Below are positions 9,647 to 34,125 of a stretch of DNA of 42,988 nt, piece by piece; position 1 is the first letter of the stretch, and each line of letters starts with the position of its first letter. Location of the stretch: contig SRSN01000003.1 of NCBI GenBank assembly GCA_004791645.1, positions 1-42,988 on the forward strand, written 5' to 3'. Under the pieces are notes generated by a model. It made no database searches. It was not told the origin of the DNA and saw only the letters and a list, made by a program, of their open reading frames with translations. This DNA is from Alcaligenaceae bacterium 429. GTDB lineage: Bacteria; Pseudomonadota; Gammaproteobacteria; Burkholderiales; Burkholderiaceae_B. The position numbers were made by a program, and so were the translations under genes.

Positions 9647-10570
9647 TTATGAGCGCGTCTGCTTACGTGTAAAAATCTCATCTCTGTGATAGGCCAAATA
9701 TTTTTTCTGCTCTTCCCGAAGCCCCCCGATAGATCCTTCAGGGTCTATCCCCCATGCTTTCAACATCGCTCGCCCCAGAGCCCCACTTAAAATGACACCA
9801 TCATCAGAAAAAGAGATATAGCCTTTATCAAATAACAGATCTACATGCGGCGCTAAAAGAAAACCGTTATATCCATCAAGACGTTCCTTGTTAGAACAAA
9901 ATCTCCACGGTTTGATATGACTTGCAATAAGAAAACGACCATCTGTAATGCCTGTCAATCTACATGCCTTTTCAACATCTTCAAGACGCGTTCTAAACGT
10001 ACCCTGCCCCCTTCTTGATTTCACTAACTGCTCTTTTTCTGTTTCAGCGATATTCAAATCCCAAAGCAAGGCCTCTTGCTGCTTTTCTTCGGCTTCTATG
10101 ATTTCTTCTTCATCCACAGAAGAGCCTGCGAGCCCCACTAAAAACAAACCTAATTTATTTGAAATAGAGGCCAGATAGCAGCTTTGTATTCCATCACCAT
10201 TAACTGCACGAATCGGAGAGTGCTTTGATGGCAGCAAAGGAGCAATAGTGGGCAAGTGCTCCTTAGGTCGTATCGGTTTTAGTAATCGCTCCCATTCGAT
10301 ACGTACACGCCAGCCATCTTGATCCCATGCATTACCCGCTGCACCAAACTCTCCAGGCTTAGCCGCATCCTCACATCCGCTTATCGCACGACCTATAGCT
10401 TTAATTTGACCATCGGCATAAGAGAACACCACATCAGCAGGTTGTACCAGGCATAAATTCTCATAGGTTTGACTGCGAGCACCATTCTTTTTTCTTTTAG
10501 GGCTCCAGATATAACCACCTTCAAATTCCTGCTTGAAAGTTTGCTTATGATTTACCCACCAGAAGGCCAT
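9647..10570 (-). CDS. HNH endonuclease (HNH_2 type) with N-terminal PUA/EVE-like domain, probable restriction enzyme
   Basis: A 307-residue protein. The C-terminal part is an HNH nuclease of the HNH_2 type: CRLTG (203-207), SHIKPW (217-222) with the first His of the motif, NGFLLAPHVDLLFD (235-248) with the Asn and second His, then the usual GYISFSDDGVIL. The first 150 residues (AFWWVNHKQTFKQEFEGGY, QPADVVFSYADGQIKAIG, GWRVRIEWERL) resemble the PUA/EVE-like readers of modified bases found in type IV restriction enzymes. That part is my inference. No methylase gene is adjacent, which fits a modification-dependent enzyme. Codon use looks more A/T-rich than the neighbours, a hint of horizontal gain. 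Confidence 0.75.
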   Translation of the reverse strand: MAFWWVNHKQTFKQEFEGGYIWSPKRKKNGARSQTYENLCLVQPADVVFSYADGQIKAIGRAISGCEDAAKPGEFGAAGNAWDQDGWRVRIEWERLLKPIRPKEHLPTIAPLLPSKHSPIRAVNGDGIQSCYLASISNKLGLFLVGLAGSSVDEEEIIEAEEKQQEALLWDLNIAETEKEQLVKSRRGQGTFRTRLEDVEKACRLTGITDGRFLIASHIKPWRFCSNKERLDGYNGFLLAPHVDLLFDKGYISFSDDGVILSGALGRAMLKAWGIDPEGSIGGLREEQKKYLAYHRDEIFTRKQTRS

Positions 10571-30374: not shown

Positions 30375-31157
30375 ATGGGCAGCACACCTAGTGCATTGCG
30401 GGCATTATGCATACTGGAAACGTTAACCAACTCTACTGAGCCACTGACGTTAACGGAATTAATGCACTACTCAAAAATTCCCAAAACCAGCTTATTGAGG
30501 AATCTCTCACTGCTGGTACAAGCGGGTTACGTGATCCGCTTACCCGGGCAATTGGGATATACCGTAGGCGCACGTAGCTTGCGGTTAAGCGTCAATGCAT
30601 TACGCTCATCGTGGTTTCTGAATGCCGCACGTAAAACCCTAAAACGACTGGTGCAAAGTACCAGTGAGGCCTGCAACCTCACGATGCTGTCCGAGGACTC
30701 TGTGCAATATCTAGTGCGGGAAGACAGCAATGCGCCGTGGAGCTTGCGCCTGCATGTACAGCCCAATGCCCCTGTACCCTTACACTGCACCGCAAGTGGT
30801 AAGTTATTTTTGGCCTATTTACCCTATATAGAGCAGAAAAAATACTTAAATAGGCTGAATTTCGCTACCTATGGCGAGAACTCTATCACCGACATGCAAC
30901 GTCTAAAAACAGAACTAGAAAGCACACGTAGGCAAGGATTTGGCGTAGACAACGAAGAGTTCGTGACAGGCATGATCGCTATTGCTGTACCCATATTTGC
31001 TGCTACAGACAGTTCTCAAGTTATTGCTGCCATAGCCTGTCACGCGGTGACGGCTAGAACCGACCTGCGCAAGCTGCTGTCATACCGAGCCATGATGTCG
31101 CAAGCCGCTACCGAAATCTCCGAGCTGCTAGCCGTTACCACTAGCCCCCAACACTAA
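30375..31157 (+). CDS. IclR-family transcriptional regulator
   Basis: A 260-residue regulator. The winged helix-turn-helix is at about residues 5-65 ([41 protein letters not shown], in parts [14 protein letters not shown] and [14 protein letters not shown]). The effector domain follows, with [18 protein letters not shown] and [21 protein letters not shown], both family hallmarks. GGAG stands before the ATG. It is divergent from the GMC-MHS operon and is its likely local regulator, binding a small ligand from that pathway. Its 3' end overlaps the 3' end of convergent arsB by 17 bases. Confidence 0.94.
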
Positions 31158-32430
31158 GCCGCAGCCCCAACGCCAATAACGTCAGCACCAATACGGGAAG
31201 CGTCAGCACTATACCTACGCGGAAATAATAGCCCCAGCTAATCACCATACCTTTACGTGCCAACACGTGCAGCCACAGCAGTGTCGCAAGTGAACCTATG
31301 GGTGTGATTTTGGGGCCCAGATCACTGCCTATGATGTTGGCGTAAATCATGGCCTCTTTCACAACGCCTGTGGCGCTGGATGCCTCAATAGACAGTGCCC
31401 CCACCAAGACTGTAGGCATGTTATTCATGATTGAAGACAACAGTGCTATCAGCAGCCCTGTGCCCAATGTCGCTACCCAAAGCCCTTGTTCAGCAAAGTA
31501 ATTCAGTAGGCGTACCAAATAGCCTGTTAAGCCCTGGTTGCGCAAGCCATAGACTACCAAGTACATACCCAAAGAAAATATAACGATGGCCCACGGTGCA
31601 GCCTTAATAACGTTATGCGTATTGATGATGTGCTGACGCGTTGCCACTGCATAGAGCAATAACGCCCCCGTTGCCGCCACAGCGCTCACGGGTACCCCCA
31701 TAGGCTCTAATGCAAAAAAGCCCACCAGCAATAACAGTAATACTAGCCAACCAAAGCGGAAGGTAATGGGGTCAACGATAGCTTCGTGGGGTTGTTGCAA
31801 TGACTCTTGGCCGTAGTGTTTAGGAATGGCATGACGAAAATACAGCACCAACATCACTAAAGATGCCACTACAGCAACAATAGCTACAGGCACCATTACC
31901 GCCGCATAATCGGTGAAACCTATAGCAAAAAAATCAGCCGAAACAATGTTGACTAAGTTGGAGACGACCAAAGGCAAACTGGCGGTATCTGCTATGAACC
32001 CCGCGGCCATCACAAACGCTAATGTTGCCCCTGCATTCACACCTAAGGCTAAGAGCATTGCCATCACAATGGGTGTCAAAATCAACGCAGCACCATCATT
32101 GGCAAATAACGTCGCAACCGCTGCCCCTAGCAAGATAATCAACACAAACAAGGCTAAGCCGTTGCCCCTCCCCCAACGAGCCACGTGCAAGGCAGCCCAT
32201 TTAAAGAAGCCCGCCTCATCTAAAAGCAAACTGATAATAATAATGGCGATAAATGTAGCGGTTGCATTCCATACTATGCTCCATACCACTGGAATATCAG
32301 CCACACTGACGGTACCAAGTAGCAAGGACAACACAGCACCAATGCTCGCACTCCACCCTATGGACAACCCCTTAGGCTGCCAGATCACCAGTACTAACGT
32401 AAGGATAAAAATACCTACTGCAGTAAACAT
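31141..32430 (-). CDS. arsB: Arsenite efflux pump ArsB
   Basis: A 429-residue, 12-helix carrier. It matches the ArsB type, not ACR3: [20 protein letters not shown] at the start, [68 protein letters not shown] (in parts [19 protein letters not shown]) and [13 protein letters not shown]. It exports arsenite or antimonite by the proton gradient. No arsA ATPase is in the window. It lies 11 bases after the fused arsCH gene and is therefore the second gene of the arsenic operon. Confidence 0.96.
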
Positions 32431-32441
32431 GATCTACGCCC

Positions 32442-33584
32442 TTAAATAGAACGTTGGTTGACTCTAGCGCTCAGGGCTTCAGCACTTTCTTTGCGCTCAC
32501 TATAACGGTCCACCAAGTAAGCCCCTACATCGCGTGTAAGCAGTGTAAATTTCACCAGTTCTTCCACGACATCCACAATGCGATCGTAATACGCCGACGG
32601 CTTCATACGACCATCCTCGTCAAACTCCAAATACGCTTTGGCCACAGAAGACTGATTTGGGATAGTCAGCATGCGCATCCAACGCCCTAACACCCGCATC
32701 TGATTCACCGCATTAAAGGATTGCGAACCTCCTGAAACCTGCATCACGGCCAATGTTTTACCTTGTGTAGGTCGCACCGCACCTTCGGATAGCGGAATCC
32801 AATCTATTTGTGTTTTCATCACCCCCGTCATTGCCCCGTGTCGTTCAGGGGAACACCAAATCATTCCCTCTGCCCACTGCGCTAAGGATCGTAGCTCTTG
32901 CACTTTAGGGTGTTGCTCTGAACTGTCATCCACCAGCGGTAAGCCTTTGGGGTTAAAAATACGTACTTCAGCGCCAAACGCCTGCAACAAACGTGCGCTT
33001 TCTTCTATCACGAAGCGGCTATATGAGCGCTCTCGCAATGAGCCATAAAGCAGTAAAAAGCGTGGTGCGTGTGTCTTTCGTTGCGTTGGCTGCAATAAAC
33101 GCTGTAAATCGGGTACGTCAAACAGTTCTGGTATAACTTGCGATGGCAAAACTGCGGCACTCACACGTTGGCCCGCATCATTGACCACCACTTCGCCATC
33201 TTCTTTACTAAACGCTCCAATCTGCGGATCAGGCAAGATATCCAGCACTGTTTCTGAGGGTCGGCACAACTTAACCCCTAAGGGCGTGACCACGATCGGC
33301 CTATTGATCAAGATAGGATGCTCTAGCATCACGTTGAGTAACTGATCATCATTCAACGTCGCATGTTCTAGCCCTAAGTCTGCATAAGGCGCCGTGTTGG
33401 TACGCAACAGGTCACGAACACTACAGCCCATTTTTTCTATAAGCCCCTGCAACTCTGCTTTGCTAGGCGTATTCACCAAATACTCAATGACACGAGGCTC
33501 TTGCCCACTATTGCGAATTAGCCCCAGTACGTTGCGTGACGTCCCACAATTAGGGTTGTGATAGATGGTGATGGTAGTATCCAT
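32442..33584 (-). CDS. arsCH: Fusion of arsenate reductase ArsC and organoarsenical oxidase/FMN reductase ArsH
   Basis: A 380-residue fusion. Residues 1-140 are a complete glutaredoxin-coupled Ars[13 protein letters not shown] with the catalytic Cys13, and the three arsenate-binding Arg residues in LLRTNTAPY (61), [11 protein letters not shown] (95) and KLCRPSE (108). Residues 145-380 are a complete Ars[24 protein letters not shown] (FMN phosphate loop, 181-190), [38 protein letters not shown], and [13 protein letters not shown]. ArsC reduces arsenate to arsenite. Known ArsH proteins oxidise trivalent methylarsenicals or reduce quinones. I start at ATG 33584 because the TTG at 33629 would lie upstream of the predicted transcript. 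Confidence 0.95.
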
Positions 33585-33617
33585 GAGTAGATCAGATTCC
33601 GTATTAACGATATCATT

Positions 33618-33647
33618 ACAATAGTTCAACTATAATTGAATAGTCAA
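33618..33647 (-). promoter_or_regulatory. Candidate promoter of the arsCH-arsB operon
   Basis: On the minus strand a -35-like TTGACT (33642-33647) and a -10-like TATTGT (33618-33623) are 18 bases apart. Transcription would start near 33611, which supports the ATG at 33584. The ArsR-type dyad at 33625-33640 lies in the spacer. Confidence 0.5.
33625..33640. promoter_or_regulatory. Probable ArsR operator and arsR -10 box
   Basis: TTCAA (33625-33629) and TTGAA (33636-33640) form a dyad with a 6-base centre, the form expected for an ArsR/SmtB-family site. The perfect -10 box TATAAT (33631-33636) for arsR lies inside it. No clear -35 is seen 16-19 bases upstream. Bound repressor would block both divergent promoters. 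Confidence 0.6.
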
Positions 33648-33650
33648 TTT

Positions 33651-33980
33651 ATGGACACCAAAACAGCCGTACAAATGTTCGATTCCCTAGCCTCAGAAGT
33701 CAGGTTAGATGTAATTAAGCTACTCGTGAAGTTTGGCGAAGATGGTTTGGTCGCAGGCGATATTGCTAGTACTTTGCAAATCCCCTCTACCAACTTGTCC
33801 TTTCACCTCAAAGCCCTCACCCATGCCGGGCTAATTACGGCTACCCAAGAAGGACGCTACCAGCGTTATAGAGCGAACCTAACCGAAATGATGGGGCTAG
33901 TGAACTTCTTGATGGCAGAGTGCTGCGCACAGCAGCAAGACGGCTGTAGCACAGTGGAGTGCAACCTTATTAGCAAATAG
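33651..33980 (+). CDS. arsR: ArsR-family arsenite-responsive repressor
   Basis: A 109-residue winged-helix repressor: MFDSLASEVRLDVIKLL, then the recognition region LQIPSTNLSFHLKALTHAGL and the wing TATQEGRYQRYRANL. It lacks the ELCVCDL arsenite site of plasmid R773 ArsR. Instead the C-terminus has Cys91, Cys92, Cys99 and Cys104, a CC-x6-C layout close to the CC-x5-C site described for Acidithiobacillus ferrooxidans ArsR. I choose the ATG at 33651; the upstream TTG at 33636 overlaps the -10 box. No ribosome site is present and the leader would be only about 6-8 bases, so translation is probably leaderless or nearly so. Confidence 0.93.
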   Translation: MDTKTAVQMFDSLASEVRLDVIKLLVKFGEDGLVAGDIASTLQIPSTNLSFHLKALTHAGLITATQEGRYQRYRANLTEMMGLVNFLMAECCAQQQDGCSTVECNLISK

Positions 33981-34055
33981 CTAGGCTTACTGCCGACTAA
34001 ACTACACGGCGGGCCGCCTCGCTACACTAGCGCTGTAAACGCCGCGGCAACACAT

Positions 34056-34094
34056 AAAACAATGGCTACTGTGAGAAACTCAACAGTAGCCATT
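34056..34094 (-). terminator. Intrinsic terminator after rlmD
   Basis: AATGGCTACTGT (34061-34072) and ACAGTAGCCATT (34083-34094) form a 12-bp stem with a 10-base loop that can extend by GAG/CTC. On the minus strand it is followed by GTTTTA. It lies 31 bases past the rlmD stop. Confidence 0.85.
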
Positions 34095-34125
34095 CCACCC
34101 ACACGCCAACACAACGATCGTGCTG

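Follow-up and report, generated by a model that had tools for sequence, protein, structure and literature searches.

Does the single long reading frame in the ars locus of Alcaligenaceae bacterium 429 encode a genuine fusion of ArsC with ArsH, and if so, by what route did it form and what might its product do? The locus lies within a stretch of 42,988 nucleotides (assembly GCA_004791645.1, contig SRSN01000003.1), hereafter the window. A sequence-only reading of this DNA had proposed that one 380-codon gene at 32442–33584 carries a complete ArsC and a complete ArsH. These coordinates are correct, models of both families match the one frame, and the strand, absent from that reading, is minus. 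The features of the locus are given below.

31141–32430, minus strand: arsB, encoding an arsenite efflux pump, separated from the upstream fusion gene by 11 bases (TIGR00935, 683.6 bits against a cut-off of 415)
32442–33584, minus strand: arsC-arsH fusion gene, open frame of 380 codons plus stop, matched by both families
32445–33074, minus strand: ArsH core, residues 171–380 (TIGR02690 over 152–366; PDB codes 7ple, 2q62 and 2fzv; a 16-residue motif and the motif GGSQSFN)
33075–33161, minus strand: junction and ArsH N-terminal arm, residues 142–170, with a probable old arsH start in the +1 frame
33162–33575, minus strand: ArsC part, residues 4–141 (PRK10026 alignment, under its cut-off; TIGR00014, over its cut-off; 1jzw alignment)
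33585–33650, no strand: divergent intergenic region, with short inverted repeats and one promoter-like site
33651–33980, plus strand: divergent arsR-like regulator (PF01022 (HTH_5) and PF12840 (HTH_20) over their cut-offs; NF033788 just under, at 54.3 against 55)

One reading frame carries a complete ArsC and a complete ArsH

The frame runs from an ATG at 33584 to a TAA and encodes 380 amino acids (42.5 kDa). It can be extended upstream to a TTG at 33629, which would give 395 amino acids; the ATG is in line with the starts of aligned ArsC proteins and is favoured.

The N-terminal half is matched by Pfam PF03960 at residues 8–115 (E 1.4e-21) and by NCBIfam TIGR00014 at residues 5–117 (135.4 bits, cut-off 106.05). 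The exception-level model PRK10026 aligns with residues 4–141 over model positions 3–140 of 141, at 204.7 bits below its cut-off of 242, and its narrower label is not claimed here. In the alignment of the ArsC structure 1jzw with residues 4–140, Cys13, Arg61, Arg95 and Arg108 correspond to chain positions 12, 60, 94 and 107, in agreement with the proposal that the cysteine and three arginines of ArsC are retained. We take these four to be the catalytic residues of R773-type ArsC, the type to which 1jzw belongs. Judged by these matches, the half is a complete ArsC of the R773 type, dependent on glutaredoxin, with predicted activity.

The C-terminal half is matched by Pfam PF03358 at residues 175–317 (E 2.1e-32) and by TIGR02690 with 406.7 bits against a cut-off of 292.25, and ArsH structures align over residues 160–378 (7ple) and 157–380 (2q62). 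The flavin loop, GSLRxRSxSR, was said to be retained and is located at residues 181–190, and the alignment reaches the complete C terminus. Residues from about 142 to 380 are accordingly a complete ArsH, predicted to bind FMN, to oxidise NADPH and to assemble into a tetramer.

The two halves had been described as joined with almost no linker. It holds that nothing is inserted between them, but residues 142–170, ArsH's own N-terminal arm, lie between the two cores. Chance matching of both domains is excluded, and a pseudogene or a decayed half is ruled out, as both halves are full length with their key residues. An AlphaFold model of the fusion, computed with mostly unpaired rows, has a mean pLDDT of 79.8 and a pTM of 0.56. 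The ArsC half is confident, confidence drops at residues 131–150, with a dip at 138–150 by the junction, and within the ArsH half, much of which is poorly modelled, residues 161–240 and 321–350 are confident while 241–320 are weak (block means 33–79). As a prediction it gives nothing on contacts between the halves or on their relative placement.

The ars locus and its surroundings

The setting of the fusion is that of an ars operon, with an arsenite pump and an ArsR-type regulator both adjoining it, and the whole ars locus sits between a gene for an IclR-type regulator and rlmD. The arsR-like gene is listed from a TTG at 33636, inside the divergent intergenic region; given that position, translation more likely begins at the ATG at 33651. 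An operator search of 33585–33650 returned short repeats only, no more than expected by chance, and a promoter search gave one rightly placed site, but found two sites in total where shuffled sequence averaged 3.9. The GC content of the ars locus (48.8%) is like that of the window (49.3%), so that composition argues neither for nor against recent acquisition. A megablast search of plasmids with window positions 30900–34100 gave no match.

A close relative of the same genus (G008) is collinear with the window on both sides of the ars locus. Between its IclR-type gene and rlmD (locus L139, contig C9) it carries an unrelated 377-codon frame in place of the ars locus, so the interval differs by replacement or insertion. 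The relative's own arsC/arsH pair is on another contig. Likewise, nothing in the retrieved part of this relative's genome, collinear in other respects, corresponds to a 307-codon frame at window positions 9647–10570.

The genome that carries the fusion has a second ars copy (locus L003, G000:C124) with separate, overlapping arsC and arsH, and the fused copy may therefore be redundant. The arsH of this second copy may begin at a TTG. A search for ArsM in the same genome gave nothing above cut-off, which is weak evidence of absence because the genome is 89% complete; the ArsM model has matches in all 14 control genomes, above cut-off in only one.

Two-gene relatives suggest a route to fusion

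Loci were collected by similarity to the fused protein, one step of the collection keeping the best 80 of 552. The 127 loci compared contained 80 adjacent arsC/arsH pairs, and removal of 19 duplicates with identical DNA left 61 distinct pairs. In 49 of these arsH lies in the +1 frame relative to arsC, six keep both genes in one frame but separated by a stop, two have arsH in the other frame, and four are fused; with a collection built on likeness to the fusion itself, four in 61 overstates the true fusion frequency. The statement that arsC and arsH are normally separate genes is supported both by the 57 unfused pairs and by plasmid records, where all 40 of those listed, from 3506 matching, align in two pieces.

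All 49 +1-frame pairs have an arsH frame that passes the arsC stop uninterrupted, by 20–185 nt, and loss of one base in the overlap would thus carry reading from arsC into arsH. The fusion would have formed when an ordinary overlapping pair lost its arsC stop, most simply by a net loss of one base in the overlap. Such a ready one-base route would explain why arsC-arsH fusions recur, and it carries a warning for annotators, as single-base errors in the overlap would mimic fusions.

At the junction, the +1 frame contains two ATGs (33181 and 33178) and then a TGA at 33163, probably what is left of the former arsH start. This stretch resembles the arsH start of an unfused pair (L045), although some resemblance is unavoidable, since the conserved tail of ArsC is encoded by these very bases. 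Retained +1-frame starts are as expected of a very recent fusion, and equally of an assembly error.

The six same-frame pairs with an intervening stop are L019, L021, L025, L107, L109 and L110. Loss or read-through of the stop would fuse them, and among the four fusions L108 is related to this group.

Several candidate fusions were dropped. The 418-codon frames of genomes G022 and G029 correspond to loci L021 and L019, which have a same-frame stop between the genes, as do L025, L107, L109 and L110. The locus of a 520-codon frame in G544 (L127) is without ArsC, and the arsC adjacent to a 391-codon frame in G1030 is, by its coordinates, in another frame.

Fusion has occurred more than once and is rare in the genomes surveyed

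Three further distinct fusions were found, with neighbours named by eye from the translations.

L024, Comamonas MAG NTP6: arsR-acr3-arsCH
L026, Alcaligenaceae MAG: arsR-arsCH-arsB (the same gene recurs as L111 in genome G214)
L108, genome G236: divergent arsR

All four fusions retain the key residues of each half, and no two of them have the same linker sequence. In L108 the ArsC and ArsH matches lie 100 nt apart, compared with 181 nt in the nearest unfused relatives.

A tree of both halves was built from 61 rows, a selection that differs from the 61 distinct pairs. The label 'fused' changes four times on this tree, the starred branches force four changes, and a single fused clade appears in 0% of 200 bootstrap trees. 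One ancient fusion family, with all four as a single clade, is rejected by the AU test (p-AU 2.8e-8). A clade of the window fusion with L024 and L026 is not rejected (p 0.18), nor are the pairs of the window fusion with L024 (0.31), L024 with L026 (0.10) and the window fusion with L026 (0.38). In a quick tree of ArsH only (103 rows), the starred branches force only two changes. Long branches in the two-half tree are those of L026, L102, L074 and the window fusion. The trees indicate that fusion arose at least twice, and two to four origins are possible.

In a survey of 268 genomes of the family (E ≤ 1e-120), three unbroken matches spanned both halves, that of the window included, and three more did so with one TGA inside. 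Surveys of the order (399 genomes) and class (369 genomes) at E ≤ 1e-122 gave no other match spanning both halves, and a phylum survey of 398 genomes at E ≤ 1e-95 gave no other such row. The four samples overlap, and scored candidates per genome were at most seven in the family survey and four or five in the others. Two other fusions, at 1e-138 and 1e-154 in the family survey, would pass every survey threshold. Among ten other members of the genus, none has the fusion. We conclude that the fusion is real and recurrent, and it is rare in these surveys.

Function of the fused protein and alternative explanations

We consider it likely that the gene is a real in-frame arsC-arsH fusion, derived from an overlapping pair that lost its arsC stop, and that this gene, part of an arsR / arsCH-arsB locus, encodes a bifunctional protein. 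We infer the activity, regulation and oligomeric state of this protein, and its existence as one chain rather than two. The ArsC half would reduce arsenate to arsenite with glutathione and glutaredoxin, and ArsB would export the resulting arsenite. The ArsH half would act as an NADPH:FMN oxidoreductase with the usual job of ArsH, either oxidation of trivalent organoarsenicals or reduction of flavins, quinones or organoarsenic compounds. The literature disagrees on this job: one paper treats ArsH as an organoarsenical oxidase (PMC6205960), another as a flavin reductase that also reduces organoarsenic compounds and is tetrameric in crystals (PMC9137774). Most likely the halves keep their usual jobs at a 1:1 ratio, which the fusion would fix while placing ArsC on the ArsH oligomer. 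Two ordinary enzymes on one chain are the simplest reading, and the evolutionary route to such a chain is a plain one.

A rather improbable alternative is that the fusion is a neutral and recent accident, in which the frame is joined, an internal start still yields free ArsH and function is as in the two-gene state. A separate ArsH could be initiated within the frame, at GTG codons (residues 132, 133 and 141) or TTG codons (146 and 164), and by eye a purine-rich stretch, weakly resembling a ribosome-binding site, precedes the GTGs at 132 and 133. The probable relic of the old start, the unfused second copy in the same genome and the absence of the fusion from the ten other genus members fit such an accident as well. 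By eye, however, there is no strong ribosome-binding site before codons 141 and 146. Moreover, the linkers of L024, L026 and L108 have diverged, yet both halves remain open with their key residues, from which it follows that fused proteins can persist.

Because the loss of one base suffices to join the genes, an assembly error was a rival to be weighed: the cell would then have an ordinary overlapping arsC/arsH pair, with one base missing from the contig. Besides the sufficiency of a single base in the overlap, the two ATGs kept in the +1 frame just before the TGA speak for this, as does the state of the assembly (391 contigs, 89% complete). As a control for frameshifts, the window was compared with its close relative G008, to which DNA identity is 79–87% in the seven largest collinear pieces. 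The window has 38 non-overlapping frames of at least 90 codons, not every one of which need be a gene. A counterpart was present for 34 of them, and each of these aligns without a change of frame across at least 97% of its length; the frames that lack one are 9647–10570 and the three ars genes, and the control covers only frames common to both genomes. Taken the other way, from the relative to the window, 34 of 35 matched frames are covered, and the remaining one runs off the window end. The control amounts to approximately 11,700 codons, or about 35 kb, with zero breaks, which places the error rate below roughly 9e-5 per base (95% bound), or at about 0.2% over an overlap of 25 bases. The existence of three further distinct fusions also stands against an error, and L108 at least is not explicable by one base, given the difference in its gap. 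We therefore judge an error in the contig to be quite unlikely, and with it the hidden frameshift at the junction that the sequence-only reading had named as its possible refutation.

It is highly unlikely that the halves are directly coupled, with the FMN/NADPH half re-reducing the ArsC half or taking its product, so that the fusion would be a channelled enzyme or an arsenate reductase independent of glutaredoxin: both redox centres are on one chain and fusion has occurred at least twice, but the four differing linkers do not suggest a conserved contact, the ArsC half retains its R773-type residues, the ArsH substrates named in the accessible parts of PMC6205960 and PMC9137774 include neither arsenite nor ArsC, and the AlphaFold model is silent on contacts. 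Nothing points to the earlier idea that the ArsH half feeds electrons to the ArsC half, and we hold it very doubtful that the join evolved several times for that reason, as a self-sufficient enzyme in which NADPH electrons would pass via the ArsH FMN to ArsC and arsenate would be reduced with less glutaredoxin or none.

Comparison with known systems

Returning to the preferred reading of two ordinary enzymes on one chain, the ArsC half resembles the R773-type, glutaredoxin-dependent ArsC (PDB codes 1jzw and 1i9d) over residues 4–140, with the key cysteine and three arginines aligned. The solved chains of this type that were matched have 138–141 residues, whereas in the fusion 239 further residues of ArsH follow ArsC. 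The ArsH half resembles the NADPH:FMN oxidoreductase ArsH (7ple, 2q62 and 2fzv), with matches that begin at residues 157–174 and end at 372–380 and with the flavin loop region aligned. Ordinary ArsH has a free N terminus; in the fusion it is joined to ArsC. Among two-gene loci, a plasmid of Comamonas endophytica (NZ_CP106883.1) has the same gene order, and its annotated arsC and arsH share 14 bases; there the pair encodes two proteins where the window encodes one.

Among the titles and abstract openings listed from the open-licence literature, no ArsC-ArsH fusion was found. A natural ArsC-ArsH chain offers a reagent for asking whether ArsH, whose role has long been debated, acts in the handling of inorganic arsenic. 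Known fusions of ArsC, according to PMC6205960, include ArsR-ArsC, Acr3-ArsC (Mycobacterium tuberculosis), AqpS-ArsC and ArsN-ArsC, and the same source cites the view that the small ArsC seems 'predestined' for fusions. The present protein is like these in joining ArsC to another ars protein; it differs in that their partner, as described there, is a regulator, a transporter or ArsN, and here it is ArsH. ArsH thus joins the list of ars proteins fused with ArsC, as a partner that is new as far as these literature searches reach, in a kind of fusion that is familiar.
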